DNA from: Chthonomonadia bacterium
GTDB lineage: Bacteria > Armatimonadota > HRBIN16
DNA length: 64,000 nt
NCBI GenBank assembly: GCA_013314755.1
Contig: JABUFA010000008.1
Span: 1 to 64,000 of the forward strand
Direction: 5' to 3'
A model generated the notes under the pieces. The model saw only the letters and a program-made list of their open reading frames with translations. It was not told the DNA's origin and made no database searches. The position numbers and the translations under genes are program-made. Below are positions 14,449-23,594 of the stretch, piece after piece. Every line of letters starts with the position of its first letter. Positions within the stretch are counted from its first letter, which is position 1.

Positions 14449-14709
14449 GTGAAGGTCGCCATTCGTGCCCGTTTTGATGGCGAAGTATTCGTGCCCGAAG
14501 AGCCGGTGGACCTGGCAGAGGGGGAGAGGGTGCTGATACAAGTACTGTCGCCGGTGCCTTTTGCAGGCAAGGCAGTAACGCCGGAGGAAGTAGAGGCAGT
14601 ACTTGCGGAACTTCGCATGACCGCCCTGGAGCGTTTTGTGTCGCGGGGAGTTTCGGGCGTTAATCTTCCCGATGAGGCGTTGCGACGGGAGAGCATCTAT
14701 GAGGATTGA
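14449..14709 (+). CDS. Antitoxin, AF2212-like (DUF104) family
   Basis: An 86-residue protein beginning KVAIRARFDGEVFVPEEPVDL and continuing EGERVLIQV, the compact beta-barrel of AF2212-like antitoxins, with a C-terminal tail (SGVNLPDEALRRESIYED) that would contact the toxin. The GTG at 14449 has GGAGG eight bases upstream; an earlier GTG at 14440 overlaps that site. A TAGAAT at 14424 could be a -10 box. It overlaps the following PIN gene by 11 bases, the standard order for type II toxin-antitoxin pairs. It appears intact although the toxin does not. Confidence 0.75.
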   Translation: MKVAIRARFDGEVFVPEEPVDLAEGERVLIQVLSPVPFAGKAVTPEEVEAVLAELRMTALERFVSRGVSGVNLPDEALRRESIYED

Positions 14710-15151
14710 AAAGCTGCTGGTGGACAGCAACGTGCTTCTTCGCCTGAGTGATTTGAGCAGTCCCCAGCATCCCATCTGTCGTCAAGCAATGCTTGAGTGT
14801 ATCCGTAAAGGCATTCCCCTGACAGTCTGCACCCAGATACTGATAGAGTTCTGGAGCGTTTCCACTCGTCCTCTTGATGTCAACGGGTTGAATCGTACCA
14901 TGGATGACACATACCAGTCTTGCCTTGACATCCTGAACTTCGCCCTCTTCCTGCCTGAACCAGAGGATATTTTTGACCGATGGCTGGACCTCGTTCACCG
15001 CTATGAGGTGCGGGGTAAACAGGTGCATGATGCCCGTCTGGTGGCTTTCGCGTAGGCGCATGGCATCTCGCAGATACTGACGCTCAATCCACAAGATTTC
15101 GCCCGCTACACTGAAGTTACCACCATCCTGCCGAAAGACGTTCTGCGCTGA
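14699..15151 (+). pseudogene. PIN-domain toxin gene interrupted by TAG
   Basis: The intact reading would be a 150-residue VapC-like PIN ribonuclease. Acidic residues expected at the active site are Asp9 (LLVDSN), Glu50 (QILIEF) and Asp111 (QVHDARLVAF). Codon 119 is TAG (15053-15055). The same frame then continues with AHGISQILTLNPQDFARY, the normal last conserved block of PIN proteins including the fourth polar/acidic position, and ends at TGA 15149-15151. One base change therefore removes the last motif. It may be a real inactivating mutation, a sequencing error, or suppressed. The ATG at 14699 overlaps the antitoxin end. Confidence 0.75.
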
Positions 15152-15246: not shown

Positions 15247-16128
15247 CTATTGATACCTTCGGAACAACTGCTCCACGCTGGGGTTTTCGGTATACGCCTG
15301 TCGTTTAATCATGGCGACCTGTTCGTCCAGCGTGGGGCGGTCCACCCGGTAGAAGATGCCGATGGGAAACATCCCGTCTTCTTCTGCCAGGCGCAGGGCG
15401 GCTAACTTGTCTGTCGGGTCGTGCGTGTCGGGTATCTCGTATACTTTGCCTTTGTAGTAGTCGTAGGTCTGGACCTTGTTAAAGGTCACACAGGGGCTGA
15501 AGACGTCCACCAGCGCGAATCCGGGATGCTTGATGGCTTCGGCGAAGATACGTGCCAGATGATTGGGCATGCTGGAGTATCCACGCGCCACAAAGGTGGC
15601 TCCCGACACGATAGCAATCTGCAACGGGTTCAGCGCACCTTCCACATTGCCGAAGGGCGTGGTCTTCGTCACGAACTGCAGTGAGCTGGTCGGCGAGGTC
15701 TGCCCTTTGGTCAAGCCGTAAATCTGGTTGTTCATGACGATATAGGTGATGTCGATATTGCGTCGCGCGGCGTGCGGGAAGTGCCCGAGACCGATGGAGT
15801 AGCCATCGCCATCGCCCCCGACACCAATGACCGTCAGCTCGGGGTTCGCCAGCTTGATGCCAGTGGCGACGGGTAAAACGCGCCCATGCACGCCATGAAA
15901 GCCGTACGTGACCACAAAGCCCGGCAGTCGGCTGGAGCATCCGATGCCCGATACGAGCACGGTCTTGTCGGGGTCCAGGTTCAGCTGGCTCAGCGCCTTG
16001 AAAAGCGCATTGAGCACGCCGTAGTCACCACAGCCGGGGCACCATATCGGTTCCAGGTCGCTCTTATAGTCTTTTGGCTGGCGCTGGACCTGTTGCGTTT
16101 CCACGTGAATGGTCTGAGTGTTTTCCAT
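15247..16128 (-). CDS. korB: 2-oxoacid:ferredoxin oxidoreductase, beta subunit
   Basis: About 293 residues carrying the thiamine-diphosphate domain. WCPGCGDYGVLNAL near the N-terminus and SGIGCSSR are typical of KorB/PorB. GVGGDGDGYSIGLGHF followed by VMNNQIYGLTKGQ is the GDG...NN cofactor motif. With KorA it would convert a 2-oxoacid (2-oxoglutarate most likely) and CoA to the acyl-CoA with reduction of ferredoxin. ATG 16128 is preferred because AGGAGGT lies at 16133-16139; the in-frame GTG at 16146 overlaps korA. It follows korA by 14 bases. Confidence 0.92.
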   Translation of the reverse strand: MENTQTIHVETQQVQRQPKDYKSDLEPIWCPGCGDYGVLNALFKALSQLNLDPDKTVLVSGIGCSSRLPGFVVTYGFHGVHGRVLPVATGIKLANPELTVIGVGGDGDGYSIGLGHFPHAARRNIDITYIVMNNQIYGLTKGQTSPTSSLQFVTKTTPFGNVEGALNPLQIAIVSGATFVARGYSSMPNHLARIFAEAIKHPGFALVDVFSPCVTFNKVQTYDYYKGKVYEIPDTHDPTDKLAALRLAEEDGMFPIGIFYRVDRPTLDEQVAMIKRQAYTENPSVEQLFRRYQ

Positions 16129-16142
16129 CTGTACCTCCTGCC

Positions 16143-17882
16143 TCACATCCGGGCAACGTGGATGATTTCCTCTTTAATCTCTTCGGGGTCGAAGGGCAGA
16201 CCCGTGTCCTTCGCATACGAGATAGGACGGACGTTAGTCTGCGCACGCAGGTAAGCCGCAAACTCGCCGGTGAAGTTCTTTTCGGGAACCAGCACCCTCT
16301 TCACCTTGCTGGCGAACTCCTCGATGATATGCACCGGAAGGGGCATCAGCATCTTGGGATAGAGCGCAGCCGCCTTCACGCCTTCCGCCTGCGCCAGCTG
16401 CATCGCCTCACGGATAACCCCCTCGGTGGATCCCCAGCCGATAATGCCCACATCGGCGCCTTCGGGGTCGCCCCAGATGCGCACGAACTGCTCGGCATAC
16501 TCCTCGCCAAGTGTTTGCAGTTTGCGGAAGCGCTTGGACTTCATCGCCTGCAGATTTTCGGGGGTGTAGGTTGGGTCACTATATTCGTTGTGCTCGATGC
16601 CGGTCGCCGTGTATGCCAGTCCGGGCATACCGGGTATCGCCATCGGTGAGATGCCCGTTTCGGTAATCGCGTAGCGGGCGTATTCGCCGTTGGTGCCGGG
16701 TTCAGGGACGATTCGCTCCCATCGCGGCACGCGCATCAGGTCGGGTTTCGGGATGGTACAGCGACGGTGTCCCAGCGACTGGTCCGAGAGCACAATCACC
16801 GGCACCTGGTATCGCTCGGCGATGTTCAGTGCGTGCTGGACCAGGTAGAAACAGTCTTCCACACTGGTAGGCGCCAGCACTACGCGCGGGGATTCGTTGT
16901 GCACGCCATACACGGCAATGTTCAGGTCGCCCTGTGAGGTTTTGGTGGGCAAGCCGGTACTGGCGCCGCCGCGCTGAACGTCCACAATCACCGCCGGGAT
17001 TTCCGCCTGCCCCGCCAGGTTAATCTGCTCCACCATCAGCGAGAGTCCGGGACCAGAGGTGGCGGTCATGGCGCGCTTGCCGGCGAAAGAGGCTCCCAGC
17101 ACCATGCCCAGCGCTGCGATTTCGTCCTCTGCCTGCATTACCACTCCACCAAAGCGGGGTAGAATGGGAGCCAGCACCTCCATAATGTCAGTAGCGGGGG
17201 TGATGGGATAGCCTGCATAGAATTCCAGCCCGCCGTGCACTGCTCCCAGCGCCAGCGCTTCATTACCGTTGATGATGAGGCGATTGGGGTTGACCTCTGC
17301 CACACCCTGCAGGAGAGGTCTGGAGCAATCCGCATACTGCTCTATATAGTTATAACCAGCATGCAGTGCCTGAAAGTTCTTCTGTACAACCTCTTCGCCC
17401 TTGCGCTTGAAGGTCTGTTCGGCAATCTGCTCACCTGCTTGCACGGGAGCGCCGATGTAGCGCAGGATTGCCCCCAGCGCCACCACGTTCTTGGTGAGCA
17501 CGGAGCCAATCTCCTTTTTGGCAATGGTGCCTATGGGTACGGGAACAACGCAATTGTTGGGCAGGTCGTGCACGGGAACGTTGTCGCTGTCGTAAATCAG
17601 CGTGCCTCCGGGGCGCAGAGCACTGATGTTATCACGGTATCCCTCTTCGTTCAGCGCCACGAAAATATCTACCTGACTACCGTAGGAAAGAAGCAGGTGG
17701 TCTGCTACGCGCACCTGATACAGGACGGTGCCTCCTTTGATTTCTGCGGGATAGGTGCGGAAGGTATATACTTCATACCCCAGGCGCGCCAGCGCCGTCG
17801 TCAGCATCTCGCCGAGGCTCAGCACTCCTTCGCCCGACTCTCCCGCCAGACGCACCACAAAATCGGTTCGTGAGCCTTCCAT
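16143..17882 (-). CDS. korA: 2-oxoacid:ferredoxin oxidoreductase, fused gamma-alpha subunit
   Basis: A 579-residue protein with the gamma domain at residues 1-190 (RLAGESGEGVLSLGEML, FRTYPAEIKGG) fused to the alpha domain (GNEALALGAVHGGLEFYAGYPITPATDIME, shown here only in part as GYPITPATDIME). Later come TSGPGLSLM and RGGASTGLPTKTSQGD. This gamma-alpha fusion is the usual KorA form in bacteria and archaea with a two-subunit enzyme. The start at ATG 17882 has AAAGGAG eight bases upstream. It forms an operon with korB. The enzyme suggests a reductive or ferredoxin-linked TCA step, hinting at micro-oxic or thermophilic life. Confidence 0.92.
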   Translation of the reverse strand: MEGSRTDFVVRLAGESGEGVLSLGEMLTTALARLGYEVYTFRTYPAEIKGGTVLYQVRVADHLLLSYGSQVDIFVALNEEGYRDNISALRPGGTLIYDSDNVPVHDLPNNCVVPVPIGTIAKKEIGSVLTKNVVALGAILRYIGAPVQAGEQIAEQTFKRKGEEVVQKNFQALHAGYNYIEQYADCSRPLLQGVAEVNPNRLIINGNEALALGAVHGGLEFYAGYPITPATDIMEVLAPILPRFGGVVMQAEDEIAALGMVLGASFAGKRAMTATSGPGLSLMVEQINLAGQAEIPAVIVDVQRGGASTGLPTKTSQGDLNIAVYGVHNESPRVVLAPTSVEDCFYLVQHALNIAERYQVPVIVLSDQSLGHRRCTIPKPDLMRVPRWERIVPEPGTNGEYARYAITETGISPMAIPGMPGLAYTATGIEHNEYSDPTYTPENLQAMKSKRFRKLQTLGEEYAEQFVRIWGDPEGADVGIIGWGSTEGVIREAMQLAQAEGVKAAALYPKMLMPLPVHIIEEFASKVKRVLVPEKNFTGEFAAYLRAQTNVRPISYAKDTGLPFDPEEIKEEIIHVARM

Positions 17883-17935
17883 CGGACCACTCCTTTGTGT
17901 CGTCAGAAGATGCGACATCGCACCTCGTTATTTCA

Positions 17936-18433: not shown

Positions 18434-19150
18434 TCACTCCGATTCGCGAGAAGAGAGGGGTATCGGTTTGTCTCTGAACACCAGATACCCGAAGCGATGG
18501 GGGCGGTGGAAAGCCACATTCTCTCCCAGCACCGGTGACCAGCAGGTGTATTCCGTTTCCTTCCCACTCATCTCAATCCGATAGAGGTTCACCCGCCACA
18601 CGTCGCCATCCTGAGGGGGAAGGTTGGGAGCATCACGAAACACCGCAAACGGGATAGACACTTCGCACTGCCAGCCCGCAACCTCCCTGCCGTCTATTAC
18701 CGTTTTGCCTGTTTTCACCGCCCATTTCATGCCTTTGGCATCCCACTCGATGAACATGTGAAACTTGCCCTCTTCGAACCACACTACCACGAGGTCAACA
18801 CAAGCCCCCAGCGCGTTCCACTCGAACTCGCAGTAGTCGCGCAGGTCCTGACCGGCATCCGCAAAGAACTCTACCACCTCTTCCAGCCACAACAGGTCAT
18901 CGCGCCGGCGCATCTTACAGCGGAAATCGTCGTCCTCTACCCAGTAGGCAATGTACAGGTTCTTGGTGTCCCACGCCATTCTGACCCGCGTTTCGCGTTC
19001 CGGCGTAGTGCCGTCTTTCCACGAGGTCAGGCGTATCGCTGGCGCGCGTTTCCATGTGGCTTCGTTCAGCACGCCATCGATGCGGATGCGGTCTATCGTT
19101 CGGTAGCACTCGTAACGAGGCAAGGGAAACGGTTCACGCCCCTGAATCAT
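18434..19150 (-). CDS. CBM9-like carbohydrate-binding protein
   Basis: A 238-residue beta-sandwich protein of the CBM9-like (DOMON-related) group. The opening DGVLNEATWKRAPAIRL, the early ETRVRMAWDTKNLYIAYWVED, then EVVEFFADAG, and the terminal GDVWRVNLYRIE and CWSPVL are the standard landmarks. No signal peptide is seen. Such proteins are frequent in Armatimonadota and Planctomycetota near glycan genes and are thought to bind sugars. The ATG follows GGAGGG by seven bases. It diverges from the BlaI operon with about 100 bases between. Confidence 0.75.
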   Translation of the reverse strand: MIQGREPFPLPRYECYRTIDRIRIDGVLNEATWKRAPAIRLTSWKDGTTPERETRVRMAWDTKNLYIAYWVEDDDFRCKMRRRDDLLWLEEVVEFFADAGQDLRDYCEFEWNALGACVDLVVVWFEEGKFHMFIEWDAKGMKWAVKTGKTVIDGREVAGWQCEVSIPFAVFRDAPNLPPQDGDVWRVNLYRIEMSGKETEYTCWSPVLGENVAFHRPHRFGYLVFRDKPIPLSSRESE

Positions 19151-19242
19151 GCTTTCGCCCTCCGGCAGATTGGGATTAGCGACATCTTACCGCAGGGCGA
19201 AAGGGCTGTCAAGACATCTTTCTATCAGCTGTCGAATTGCGG

Positions 19243-19248
19243 TATACT
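19243..19248 (+). promoter_or_regulatory. -10 box for a probably leaderless blaI transcript
   Basis: TATACT ends seven bases before the ATG at 19255, which has no spaced ribosome binding site. The transcript would start at or next to the start codon. No good -35 box is visible at the usual distance. Confidence 0.45.
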
Positions 19249-19254
19249 AAAGGC

Positions 19255-19671
19255 ATGAGACGATTTCGCTTCAAACCTGAACCGACGGGCGTACGCACGG
19301 AGCTGGGCGACCTCGAGCGCACCGTGATGGAGACACTGTGGGAGCACGGTGTGTGCACGGCGTCGGAGGTGCATCAGCTGGTCTCACGCACTCATCAGGT
19401 CGCACTGACCACCATTGCCACCACTCTGGAGCGGCTGTGCAAGAAGGGGCTGGTGGAGCGCAGCGGCGAGCGCAGGAGCTACCAGTACCGCGCGACCCTC
19501 AGCAGGGAACAGCTGGAGCGGCGCATCGTCGGCGAGGCGCTGGCACACCTGGCGCAGCGTTTCCCGGAGGCGCTGGCGGTCTATTTCCATCGTGCCCCCG
19601 AAGAGGTCTCCCCGGAGATGCTTCAGCGCTGGGCGCAGGAGATCCGTCAGATGGAAGAGGAGGAGGGCTAG
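19255..19671 (+). CDS. BlaI/MecI/CopY-family transcriptional repressor
   Basis: A 138-residue winged-helix repressor. LGDLERTVMETLWEHGVCTASEVHQLV, quoted in part as LERTVMETLWEHG, then ALTTIATTLERLCKKGLVER (recognition helix and wing) are typical of the family, which dimerises through the C-terminal helices. Family members are released from DNA when cut by a BlaR1-type M56 protease or, in CopY, by copper. The next gene encodes an M56 protease and the third a metal-binding HMA protein. It lies just after a TATACT box and probably represses its own operon. Confidence 0.88.
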   Translation: MRRFRFKPEPTGVRTELGDLERTVMETLWEHGVCTASEVHQLVSRTHQVALTTIATTLERLCKKGLVERSGERRSYQYRATLSREQLERRIVGEALAHLAQRFPEALAVYFHRAPEEVSPEMLQRWAQEIRQMEEEEG

Positions 19672-19675
19672 CTCC

Positions 19676-20650
19676 GTGCACGACTGGCAGCACGCGATTG
19701 CCGGTGGAGTGCTGGCGGTGGCGGTCTTTCTGCTCATTTGTGGGGTAACTGCTCCGCTGAGCACGCTGGTGTGGCGGCTCCGCCGCCGGATAAACCTTGC
19801 CGACTTGAAAGTCGCCCTGGCGCTGGTGACGTTGTTACCCCTGCAGGTAGCGGTGCTGGTAGCCTTCTCGTTCTCATTGCCCTCCTGCGTCTATCAGAGC
19901 GGTTGCTATGCGGGCTGGCTACAGCATCTCTTCGGTGCGGGCTTCTCCCTGTGGATGCGTCCCATTGCTGTTTTCGTCGGGGGTATCCTGGTGGTATGGA
20001 TAGCCCGGCTGGTATACAGGGGAGCATCGCTGATTCGCACCATGTGCGAACTGTATGCCCATTCACATCCGCCCTCGCCGAAGTTGCTGACGGTGCTTCG
20101 TCAGGTGGTTCCGCAGGACTGGCACTCGCGCTTTCGCGAGGTGGACATGCCCTCCGAGGCAGATGGCGTGTATGGGGGAACCTGTTTGCTGTCGCGCGAA
20201 ACGGTCGGCAGTCTGAACGAGGCGCAGTTGAAAGCGGTTGTGGCTCACGAGTATCAGCACCTGCGGGCAGGAGATGGCTGGTTCGCGCTGTGGGTGGGAC
20301 TGCTGGTGAACAGCACCGCGCTGGGGATATGGAACATGGCTTACCGCTACTGGAGCAGGGCGGCGGAACTGCTGGCAGACGCCAGAGCGGCGCAGTCGGG
20401 CGTGGCACGCACGGAATTGGCTCGCGCCCTGCTGAACCGTCAGGCGGAGGCACAGGGCATGGTGCTCGGCTTCGCCTCGGAGGGCATACTGCTGGAGGAG
20501 CGGCTGCAGAGTCTGCTCGCCTCCCAGCCTCTGAAATCCTCTGCCCGGGTAACGTGGGTGCTGATAGCGGTATGTGTCGGTGGAGTGCTGTACCTGGTGT
20601 CGAAGGTGGGAGCCGCTTCTACCTGCACGGTACACTGTGTCCTGTTTTGA
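19676..20650 (+). CDS. M56-family membrane metalloprotease (BlaR1-like)
   Basis: A 324-residue protein with four or five membrane helices. The zinc motif HExxH is at His191 (VVAHEYQHLRAGD), with the third ligand probably in the later ELLADARAAQ. This is the BlaR1/MecR1 protease core, which cleaves the BlaI repressor on the cytoplasmic side. It lacks the penicillin-binding sensor domain: after a last helix (VLIAVCVGGVLYLV) the protein ends in a short tail STCTVHCVLF with a CxxxC. The GTG at 19676 has AGGAGG upstream, four bases after the blaI stop. Sensing of metal or redox through the tail is my inference. Confidence 0.8.
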   Translation: MHDWQHAIAGGVLAVAVFLLICGVTAPLSTLVWRLRRRINLADLKVALALVTLLPLQVAVLVAFSFSLPSCVYQSGCYAGWLQHLFGAGFSLWMRPIAVFVGGILVVWIARLVYRGASLIRTMCELYAHSHPPSPKLLTVLRQVVPQDWHSRFREVDMPSEADGVYGGTCLLSRETVGSLNEAQLKAVVAHEYQHLRAGDGWFALWVGLLVNSTALGIWNMAYRYWSRAAELLADARAAQSGVARTELARALLNRQAEAQGMVLGFASEGILLEERLQSLLASQPLKSSARVTWVLIAVCVGGVLYLVSKVGAASTCTVHCVLF

Positions 20651-20666
20651 GTGAGGAGGTGTTGGG

Positions 20667-20882
20667 ATGCACGTACGATTGAGCGCACCGGATATCGCCT
20701 GCAAAAGCTGCGCGAACGCCATCACGAACGCCCTGAACCGGCTGAGCGGCGTCCAGCAGGTCACGGTGGACATCGCCGGCAAGCTGGTGGATGTCCAGTT
20801 TGACGAGGCTCAGGTGAGCATAGAGCAAATCCTGCAGCGTCTGGACGACGCCGGGTTTCCCGCCACGGTGGTTTTCGGCTAA
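20667..20882 (+). CDS. Heavy-metal-associated (HMA) domain protein, CopZ-like
   Basis: A 71-residue ferredoxin-fold metallochaperone with the CxxC metal site in PDIACKSCANAITNAL and the typical ending DDAGFPATVVFG. CopZ-type proteins carry Cu(I), though CKSC could also bind other thiophilic metals. It follows the M56 gene by 16 bases with a GAGGAGG site and is the third gene of the BlaI operon. That fits the idea that this regulatory system senses metal rather than a beta-lactam. Confidence 0.85.
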   Translation: MHVRLSAPDIACKSCANAITNALNRLSGVQQVTVDIAGKLVDVQFDEAQVSIEQILQRLDDAGFPATVVFG

Positions 20883-20885
20883 CCG

Positions 20886-23594
20886 CTATCTTGCGGCGCT
20901 GGTCAGTTCGATATCATCCAGATAGAAGACGCTGGTATCGGTGGCGTTGCTCACAAAGCCGACCCATGTCAGCGTTTCAAATCCCTCGTCGGCGGGCAGT
21001 CCGTCAAAGCGGTGTTCCGTGCCGTCGGGCAGGGTAAAACGCACACCCCATCTGCCCCCGCTGGGATTGCCTATCTGCGCCCAGACCTCCACAACGACCC
21101 ACTGGCTGACCGGAATGGCGACCGGCTCCGCACCCCGCACCCGCACAGTGCCTCCCTCTATGCTGAAACTGGGTCCCACGCGGTAGGGAGATCTGCGCCA
21201 GTCGCGCCACTCGTGGTGCATCACTGCGCCCGGCTCCACGCGCAGAGCAAACCGGAGGCGTGTTGTGCCCTTGCGGTGGTTCGGCATGTAGGCAAAATGC
21301 GGATTGAAGGCAAACTGCAAGCCGGGCGCGTCGGTTACTTTCAGGCATCTTCTGCCGGTGAAGGCGGCCTCCTCCGTCACGGCGATGCTATCGCCTTTCC
21401 CTTCCACATACACCTGTGCTCCGACAGGCGGCATTCCGACTGGCGTGCTCTCGAAGCCGTCCTTCAGGCTGAGCGGCGGCGGTTCGGGGGCGAACTGCAC
21501 CGGCGGATACCGGCGGGAGCGTGCCCGCTTGATCCACTGCGCGTCGCCGGTCACGCCCGCTCGCGTGTAGTCAAACGGTTTGAAGCCGATGCGCTGAGCG
21601 GGGGAACCCGGGCGCAGGCGGAAGTCGTAGCGGTCGGCGTCGTAAAACAGCGGGTCGGCAATCAGGGAGCCTTCATCTTTGCCCAGCTGGCGCCATTGCT
21701 CCCACGAAAGGTCTTCAAAGGTGAACGGTTGTGCGCCCGCTTTGTAGTAAAGGTTTTGCCTCAGGATGACGTTCGCATCCTTCCATGAACCGAAGAACAG
21801 CGGTCCCTCTTTCCAGTAGACGATATTGCGCTCGAAGGTGAAGGAGAGATGCGGTTCCACGCGCGAGCGCTGGAGCTGCCCATCCATGCTGAAGGCGAGA
21901 ATATTGTTGCGCACCACGTTCTCGCGCCCGTAGTGCTGGTGGTAGGTGCCGGTCTTCACGTTATACACCAGGTTGTTTTCCATCACGATGTGCGTGCTTC
22001 CCTCATCGTTATACAGTCCCCAGCCGCCGCGTCCGTAGCGGTCATAGGAGTACACGTCGTGGATGACGTTGTTGCTGACGGTAGTGCCGTCGGAGACGCC
22101 CAGCGTATACACACCGCCCATATCGCTGAGCACTCCCCAGCCCAGATGGTGGATGTGGTTGAACTCAATACGGTTGCGCTGAGCGCGGCTTTCACCGTAT
22201 CCCCACGTCCAGCCCACCGAAACGCCGGTATAGAAGAAGTCGCCGAGGTCGTTGTGGGTAATCTGGTTATCGCCGCTCTGTCCGATCCACACTCCTACCG
22301 CGCCGTGGTGGATGCGCCCGCCTTCCTGAATGATGCAGTTGTGCACGGTAATGCGCCCGGTCTCCTGGCTGGCAGGAGGGATATTGCCCTCGCCGATGCG
22401 CACTCCACCTGCGCCCATATCGTGCAGATGGCATTTCTCCACGCGGCAGTCGGTGCAGGCGCGTCGGAACCAGATGGCGTACGTGCCGATATGGGCGATT
22501 TCGCATTCCCGCAGGGTGATGTGCCTTGCTCCATCTGCCATCACCACCGCCGGAACGGTATAAGCCGCCTGCCAGTCGCCGTGTCCCTGGGGAGGCAGAA
22601 CGTACTGCGCGTGGCGGAAGGTCAGCCCCCTGAAGGCGAGATGCTCCACCCATTTGCCCTCGTCGGGCTTACCTTCGAAGCGAATGAAAGCTTCGGTGAC
22701 AGGAGCAAACACCTGAGCGGTGCGCATGTCTTCACCCGGCAGGGGCTTGTAGTACAGCGTGCCATCGCGAGAGAGGAACCATTCGCCCGGCTGGTCCAGC
22801 GCGTCGCGGAAGTTTTCAAGGTGGTATCGCTGATTGGGTCCCCAGTACAGGAAGTCCCAGGTGTGTCCCCCTGTGGTGATGACCGCGCCGGTCTCCGCAT
22901 CCACCGAGGCGATGCGATGGCGCGAAATCTCCCACGAGTGGTACACCACCACCGTGACATCGCGCAGCTGTTCGGGCGAAAGGGAAAGCAGGGGGCGGAT
23001 ATCCTCCCGTCGCGCCACGAAGGCTCGGTTGGACAGTTTGGTGCGCTGACCGGTCAGGGGGTCTATGCCCTCGTCCACGCGGCTGAGCATGTAGTGGTAG
23101 AAGCGGTTGGGTGAGCGGGCGCGGGTCGCGCGTCTGCCGTTCACCCATAACTGTTCAAAGTACCATTTGCCCTCGCGCACCTGTTGAACGGTGGCTGTCC
23201 AGATACCATCCGTCCCCTTGCGAAAACCAGCGATGCGCCTGCCCCCTTCGAACACGGGTTTCGCGCCGGGCATCGCCTCGTAGGTGATGGGCGTGCTGGC
23301 GGTTCCGCTGTCTTCGGGGGTGAAGATAACGGGTTCGCTCATCGGGTATGTGCCGGTGGCGAACAGCACCTGCACGGGCGCACGCAGACCTCCAGCCGAC
23401 CTCAACCGCCTGACCGCATCCCGCGCCCCCTTCAGCGTCGCGAGCGGTCCATCCGTTCTCCTGGCGTTGGGACGTGCCAGCCTGCCCGACCAGCGGTCGT
23501 TGCCGTCCGGTGCCACATAAATCCTGATCGGTTGCGCAGTCGCCCCCACCATCAGCGCAAGCAGTGTCACGATGAGCAACCACCTTCCGCGCAT
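20886..23594 (-). CDS. Secreted right-handed beta-helix protein
   Basis: A 902-residue protein with an N-terminal signal peptide ([16 protein letters not shown]). The opening [19 protein letters not shown] and [16 protein letters not shown] is the hallmark of secreted parallel beta-helix proteins related to pectate lyases and GH141/GH110-type enzymes. The repeated right-handed coils run from about residue 330 to 640 ([28 protein letters not shown]). A C-terminal concanavalin-like domain (about 720-902) ends the protein. It probably binds or cuts a plant-type polysaccharide. It is second in an operon with the DUF4838 protein, 18 bases apart. Confidence 0.75.

Follow-up and report, generated by a model that had tools for sequence, protein, structure and literature searches.

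A BlaI, membrane protease and HMA chaperone operon as a candidate copper-type proteolytic switch

What could a BlaI/protease pair respond to if its protease has no penicillin-binding domain and the next gene encodes a copper-chaperone-like protein? This question is raised by three genes in the window, a stretch of 64,000 nucleotides. The window lies on contig C47 of a 3.95-Mb genome (88 contigs, 98.7% complete). The genes lie in the following order, with a gap of 4 nt between BlaI and the protease and of 16 nt between the protease and the HMA gene:

19255..19671, plus strand: BlaI/MecI/CopY-family repressor, 138 aa, ATG start; PF03965 at 87 bits (E 1.5e-24)
19676..20650, plus strand: membrane M48/M56-type zinc protease, 324 aa, GTG start; PF01435 at 27.4 bits; HEYQH at residues 191-195
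20653..20659, plus strand: Shine-Dalgarno-like GAGGAGG of the HMA gene, read from the sequence
20667..20882, plus strand: HMA-domain protein, CopZ/Atx1-like, 71 aa, ATG start; C12-K-S-C15; PF00403 at 54.9 bits

A CBM9-like gene upstream (18434-19150) and a 902-aa reading frame downstream (20886-23594) both run in the opposite orientation, and the operon is therefore bounded at either side. The comparison set comprised 10 genomes of the genus and 291 of the phylum. The BlaI-protease-HMA trio was present in 7 of the 10 genus genomes; BlaI occurred in the same seven genomes as the protease, and an HMA ortholog in eight. Gene order and strand were kept in all seven genomes with the protease, which bears out the operon proposed in an earlier reading of this DNA (hereafter the original prediction). 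A scan of genome contigs gave matches in two genus members only. A terminator-like stem at 20625-20640 overlaps the codons of the protease tail just 5' of the HMA gene, and was not above chance in the scan.

The original prediction had called the second gene product an M56 protease. It is indeed a membrane protease with HEYQH, but the name is loose: the M48 family (PF01435) was matched above its cut-off of 20.3 bits, whereas the M56 family (PF05569) reached 18.5 bits against a cut-off of 31. The proteases of the genus relatives are 48-52% identical to that of the window. H191, E192, H195, E231, and D235 were invariant in the genus, and the first four supply the HExxH and downstream Glu that are the hallmark of BlaR1 and MecR1. 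Like BlaR1/BlaI and MecR1/MecI, the locus pairs a repressor with an HExxH membrane protease whose protease domain precedes the last helix. It differs in that those systems carry a penicillin-binding sensor domain, whereas here a 10-residue tail stands in its place. Pfam detected no penicillin-binding domain, and the protein ends at residue 324, about 10 residues past its last helix, in ...STCTVHCVLF. Both the missing penicillin sensor and the CTVHC tail had been predicted correctly.

Five cysteines of the protease (C71, C77, C170, C317, and C321) were invariant in all seven genus proteases, as was H320. The protease of one relative (L025) has exactly these five cysteines and no further Cys. 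Their positions are as follows:

19886..19906, plus strand: C71-x5-C77 loop (codons 71-77) between helices 2 and 3, predicted outside; both Cys invariant in 7 of 7
20183..20185, plus strand: C170 codon, protease domain, predicted cytosolic side; invariant in the genus and present in 11 of 40 proteases, a single clade
20624..20638, plus strand: tail C317-T-V-H320-C321, predicted outside; C317, T318, H320, and C321 invariant

Averaged hydropathy placed helices at columns 14-32, 47-65, 91-109, and 296-314. A weaker peak at 203-221 lies between HExxH and the third zinc ligand, so this helix should not span the membrane. On average, the 33-46 loop holds 4.4 Lys and Arg residues, the 66-90 loop 0.4, and the tail 0.0; the protease domain was also positive. 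Because of the near-zero charge of the 66-90 loop and the tail, both Cys pairs are predicted to lie outside, where BlaR1 bears its penicillin sensor. C170 stands 21 residues before H191, on the protease side. Six of the nine tail positions (316-324) were invariant, compared to none of the 19 in the preceding helix (hypergeometric P 0.019 against the whole protein). The tail makes up only half of the likely sensing site, of which the C71-x5-C77 loop is probably the other half. The CTVHC tail had been put forward as a metal feature, and the invariance of its Cys and His agrees with this; the loop pair C71/C77 and C170 had been missed.

An AlphaFold model of the protease, built from only three usable sequences, had a mean pLDDT of 56, with 31-47 in the tail, too low for placing the loop relative to the tail. 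A Foldseek comparison of this model with the PDB gave nothing at E <=0.001, and the M48 protease ZMPSTE24 ranked second at E 0.32. Searched by profile, PDB sequences yielded no relative of the protease. When three proteases were searched against plasmids, two had no match and the third had weak Paenibacillus matches only, two of three being annotated as M56. A viral scan gave no match.

We examined how far these cysteines extend in the phylum. The BlaI profile matched 48 of the 291 genomes at E 1e-12. Forty proteases were aligned: seven from the genus, 32 that adjoin BlaI, and L099, with L113 (shortened) and L103 (interrupted frame) left out. Loop and tail Cys were both present in 34 of the 40 and both absent from five; the sole mixed case was L131, whose protease has the loop Cys and no tail (Fisher P 9e-6). 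At the level of 18 clusters of 45% identity, 14 had both, three neither, and one was mixed (P 0.005). Such co-occurrence would be expected of two halves of one site, or of a disulfide. In the commonest form, the loop ends in H-x-C and the tail has a single Cys within S/T-L-x-C-x-x-E. In three of the five proteases with neither Cys (L095, L100, and L101), His occupies the tail Cys position and the loop is His-rich, and HlyD_D23, AcrB or outer-membrane efflux genes lie downstream of the pair.

The neighbour survey covered 37 BlaI loci outside the genus, with ordered neighbours for 27. At these loci, the scan covered 46 of 65 listed downstream and 36 of 51 upstream ORFs, and the family tables hold the best 25 of 45 and the best 25 of 33 families, so that single matches may lie beyond. 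Fourteen loci (10 missed before and four at contig ends) were re-examined, with 16 of 18 ORFs scanned. Eight loci carry no downstream information, six at contig ends (L104, L108, L111, L113, L122, and L098) and two where no adjacent protease was found (L126 and L129). Outside the C170 clade, 23 relatives in the phylum combine a loop Cys with a single tail Cys, and no metal gene was found downstream of them among the families listed, for those with scanned ORFs. The Cys pair on its own is thus no sure sign of metal, and may be a disulfide. Most sensor-less pairs between L105 and L132 show an SPH...RPHLC loop and an SLxCxxE tail, with NadD-like, LytR and other genes nearby and no metal genes among the matches listed. 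At L095, L100, L101, and L102, the BlaI-protease pair stands directly before efflux genes of the heavy-metal RND type (HlyD_D23, AcrB or outer-membrane).

The 11 proteases with C170, namely the seven of the genus, L096, L097, L099, and L102, formed one clade with a local support of 0.97 in a midpoint-rooted FastTree tree (337 columns, local support values). All tails of this clade have H-C, and all but that of L102 have C-x-x-H-C. The alignment of a genus protease profile with that of L096, L097, and L099 starts at residue 29 and includes the tail (E 4e-17). Three of the four clade members outside the genus adjoin cupredoxin, multicopper-oxidase or metal-efflux genes. Downstream of the pair, HMA was found in 7 of 7 genus members, cupredoxin and multicopper oxidase at L096, multicopper oxidase at L097, and HlyD_D23 and AcrB with a TolC-like frame (by eye) at L102. 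At L099, by contrast, the downstream proteins matched no Pfam family, metal families included, above cut-off. L103, with its interrupted protease frame, shows the Cys that corresponds to C170 within R-C-ILS, a C-x-x-Q-C tail, and cupredoxin and multicopper oxidase genes. The protease of this genome (G101; L103 5787-6700) is split into separate frames, and the copper-type genes behind it look intact. A long His-rich stretch was seen in the frame behind L102.

The third gene product matched PF00403 well above its cut-off of 24.8 bits, and C12-x-x-C15 was invariant. Its best NCBIfam model was CopZ (NF033795; 57.5 bits, below the cut-off of 91), and MerP was also matched at 45 bits. Copper ATPases were its best PDB matches, with CopZ among the matches. 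The description of this gene as CopZ-like with a CxxC motif thus held, with CopZ as the best model under its cut-off. Purine-rich sites before the HMA gene were also seen in the relatives whose junction was inspected. No HMA gene was found near BlaI outside the genus, and the HMA output is therefore local to the genus.

One genus member, G001 (98% complete), has no BlaI and no protease at threshold. At this locus (L093 7560-7860, G001:C1), on a contig of 288 kb, the HMA gene has kept its position and its flanking genes. Before it stand a TATAAT -10 hexamer, the first BlaI codons minus one base, and then the HMA ribosome-binding site. On the simplest reading of this sequence, a deletion of blaI and the protease gene fused the promoter to the HMA gene. 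The remnant BlaI start and promoter indicate that this promoter serves the HMA gene as its output, and the retention of that gene without the regulator pair suggests that BlaI and the protease are a removable control. That G001 has managed without the pair speaks, on the other hand, against the switch. An HMA gene unlinked in relatives, which the original prediction had named as a finding that would speak against it, was not observed: the gene is linked in 7 of 7 and stands on the same promoter in G001. In G008 (80% complete), the left neighbour is followed by an unrelated gene, and G007 (77% complete) gives no information on the locus.

The following elements were found before blaI:

19220..19225, plus strand: weak -35-like hexamer TTCTAT, read from the sequence, 17 nt before the -10
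19223..19246, plus strand: conserved element between -35 and -10, candidate BlaI operator (TATCAGCTGTCGAATTGCGGTATA); pattern TATNNNCNRTCNAAWTNNGGTATA
19243..19248, plus strand: -10 hexamer TATACT, 6 nt before ATG; spacing identical in 7 of 7 trio genomes

The -35-like hexamer was missed by a consensus scan. The -10-like hexamers of the seven trio genomes (TATAAT in five, TATACT and TACAAT in one each) all lie exactly 6 nt from ATG, and no Shine-Dalgarno sequence was seen before blaI in any of them. A leaderless start of blaI, and with it of the operon, is therefore plausible. This had been predicted from TATACT close to the ATG, with a spacing of seven bases where we count 6 nt. Among 54 chosen ORFs of the window, a list that took the wrong frame over blaI itself, six had any TANNNT 5-8 nt before one of their first eight possible starts, and none of these was TATAAT-like. 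A leaderless transcript is thus plausible and would be unusual in this window.

The pattern TATNNNCNRTCNAAWTNNGGTATA was present with at most one mismatch at the blaI promoter of 6 of the 7 trio genomes, matches that exist by construction since the pattern was derived from these promoters. In the window's own genome (G000), the only match was its own blaI promoter. No match was found in G001, which is without BlaI and in which the -35/-10 element is changed. G006 has BlaI, yet its blaI promoter fails the pattern. A dyad in the candidate operator is, by eye, clear in G009 and weak in the window. Besides the blaI promoters, three sites with two mismatches were found across the 10 genus genomes, two of which are one stretch shared by two genomes; when the three were viewed as translated frames, visual inspection revealed no copper gene. 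By eye, the candidate operator was also absent upstream of the eight copA-type loci viewed, out of nine in the genus (all but L060). No wider BlaI regulon was found in these searches. The original prediction had suggested looking for the BlaI operator elsewhere in the genome, especially at P-type ATPase genes, and the search turned up none, either elsewhere in the window's own genome or at copA.

BlaI of the six genus relatives is 83-91% identical to that of the window, and its C34 is invariant in the genus. The best NCBIfam model was CopY_TcrY (47 bits, below the cut-off of 122). Neither feature that defines CopY/TcrY, a C-terminal CxC and a cop-box operator, was found at the locus: BlaI has no such CxC, and the CopY box KACANNTGTA is absent from the window. 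The segment ALAxYFHRAPE (residues 106-116, window 19570-19602) is nearly invariant in the genus and is a candidate cleavage region; it lies near the site where S. aureus BlaI is cut.

Taken together, we lean towards a proteolytic switch of copper type, or possibly for another soft metal, that controls this operon. Without metal, a BlaI dimer would occupy the -35/-10 element and silence its own leaderless operon. Outside the membrane, the C71-x5-C77 loop and the CTxHC tail of the protease would together form a composite site for the metal. Once metal is bound there, the cytosolic HExxH site would be switched on, and BlaI would be cut. The operon would then be transcribed, giving more BlaI, protease, and CopZ/Atx1-like HMA chaperone, and the chaperone would handle incoming metal in the cytosol. 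From operon structure, invariant residues, charge topology, co-loss of loop and tail Cys, neighbour genes, and the deletion in G001, all read from sequence, we infer metal binding, the identity of the metal, BlaI cleavage, and repression.

A copper-responsive pair of this kind has been described. According to PMC7896320, the BlaI/BlaR-type pair PetRP of Synechocystis responds to copper, which causes the regulator to be degraded, and PetRP is also treated in PMC12292863, PMC13421787, PMC9252766, and PMC10141476. In Synechocystis sp. PCC 6803, a BlaI-family regulator (PetR) likewise adjoins a BlaR1-like membrane protease (PetP), shown as COG0501 in PMC9252766. The accessible text of PMC13421787 states that copper activates PetP without giving sensing residues, and that of PMC10141476 calls PetRP homologues in other phyla unresolved. 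The PetRP-type hallmark, a BlaI regulator adjacent to an M48/M56 membrane protease, is found at our locus. COG0501 is the M48/HtpX group. PetRP differs in that it switches plastocyanin and cytochrome c6, whereas here an HMA chaperone is the third gene of the same operon, in another phylum. The cop operon of Gram-positive bacteria also joins a BlaI-fold repressor and an HMA chaperone (CopY/CopZ) in one operon, but our operon includes a protease and lacks a P-type ATPase, its repressor has no CxC, and there is no cop box. We found no described case of an HMA chaperone as third gene of a BlaI/protease pair in the open-access literature searched. The metal-sensing BlaR/BlaI circuit of the original prediction is thus well supported by the comparison, through the outside Cys/His residues, the clade neighbours, and G001, but its principle was already known from PetRP. 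Given this precedent, a metal-triggered BlaI/protease pair is not new in kind, and the present locus would be a variant of it. What is new here is the chaperone as output, the putative composite Cys/His site outside, and the spread over the phylum.

Could the conserved cysteines serve redox sensing instead? The outside Cys might form disulfides (C71-C77, C317-C321, or between loop and tail) through which thiol redox or envelope stress gates the protease, or a disulfide might be purely structural. The joint presence of loop and tail Cys in 34 of 40 proteases, with five having neither, is just what this predicts, and relatives with one loop and one tail Cys had no metal genes among the matches listed. 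However, the His residues speak against it: H320 is invariant in the genus, C-x-x-H-C occurs again in L096, L097, and L099, loops are His-rich in L095, L096, L097, L099, L100, L101, and L103, and His takes the place of the tail Cys in three of the five proteases without these Cys. The HMA, cupredoxin, and multicopper-oxidase neighbours also speak for metal, and we consider the disulfide reading unlikely. The same circuit with zinc, silver, mercury, or cadmium in place of copper overlaps with our main reading and is possible, though on the doubtful side. The MerP match of the HMA protein would fit it, as would the RND-type neighbours of L095, L100, L101, and L102, which are not copper-specific. 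Copper is favoured by CopZ as the best NCBIfam match, by the PDB matches to copper ATPases and CopZ, and by the cupredoxin and multicopper-oxidase genes of the sister clade. An Asp before CxxC marks Zn-type HMA domains, and the HMA protein has none.

The sensor could also be BlaI itself, acting like CopY with the protease as a mere accessory. CopY_TcrY as the best model and the invariant C34 point in this direction, but the score is far under the cut-off, the box KACANNTGTA is missing from the window, and BlaI is without the C-terminal CxC pair, given as the metal site of CopY in PMC7253601; we regard this as quite improbable. More improbable still is a BlaR/BlaI circuit of the usual kind, for beta-lactams or the cell wall, in which the HMA gene is a chance passenger. 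BlaI with an HExxH membrane protease is the classical pair for such a circuit, but this protease stops after its last helix without a penicillin-binding domain, and the HMA gene is linked in 7 of 7 genomes and was left on the promoter in G001 after the pair was lost.

The copper-type switch may be one case of a wider class, an extension that we offer tentatively and think rather doubtful. Proteolytic metal sensors would occur across the phylum, and in these the penicillin sensor would be replaced by a composite site of two short outside segments, a loop of the form H-x-C or C-x5-C and a tail with CxxHC or HC. Sensors of the C170 clade would be two-sided, and C170 could take copper from the HMA chaperone of the operon, reporting back to the protease. 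A few residues worth mutating emerge from this locus and its relatives, and G001 is a natural genome with the switch gone and the output kept. If the copper-type reading is right, a few Cys and His residues take the place of a whole domain as one signalling scaffold moves from antibiotics to metals.

Elsewhere in the window, a small PIN-like frame was seen by eye at 14636-15055. The gene pair beside it (15247-17918) resembles, also by eye, a 2-oxoacid:ferredoxin oxidoreductase.
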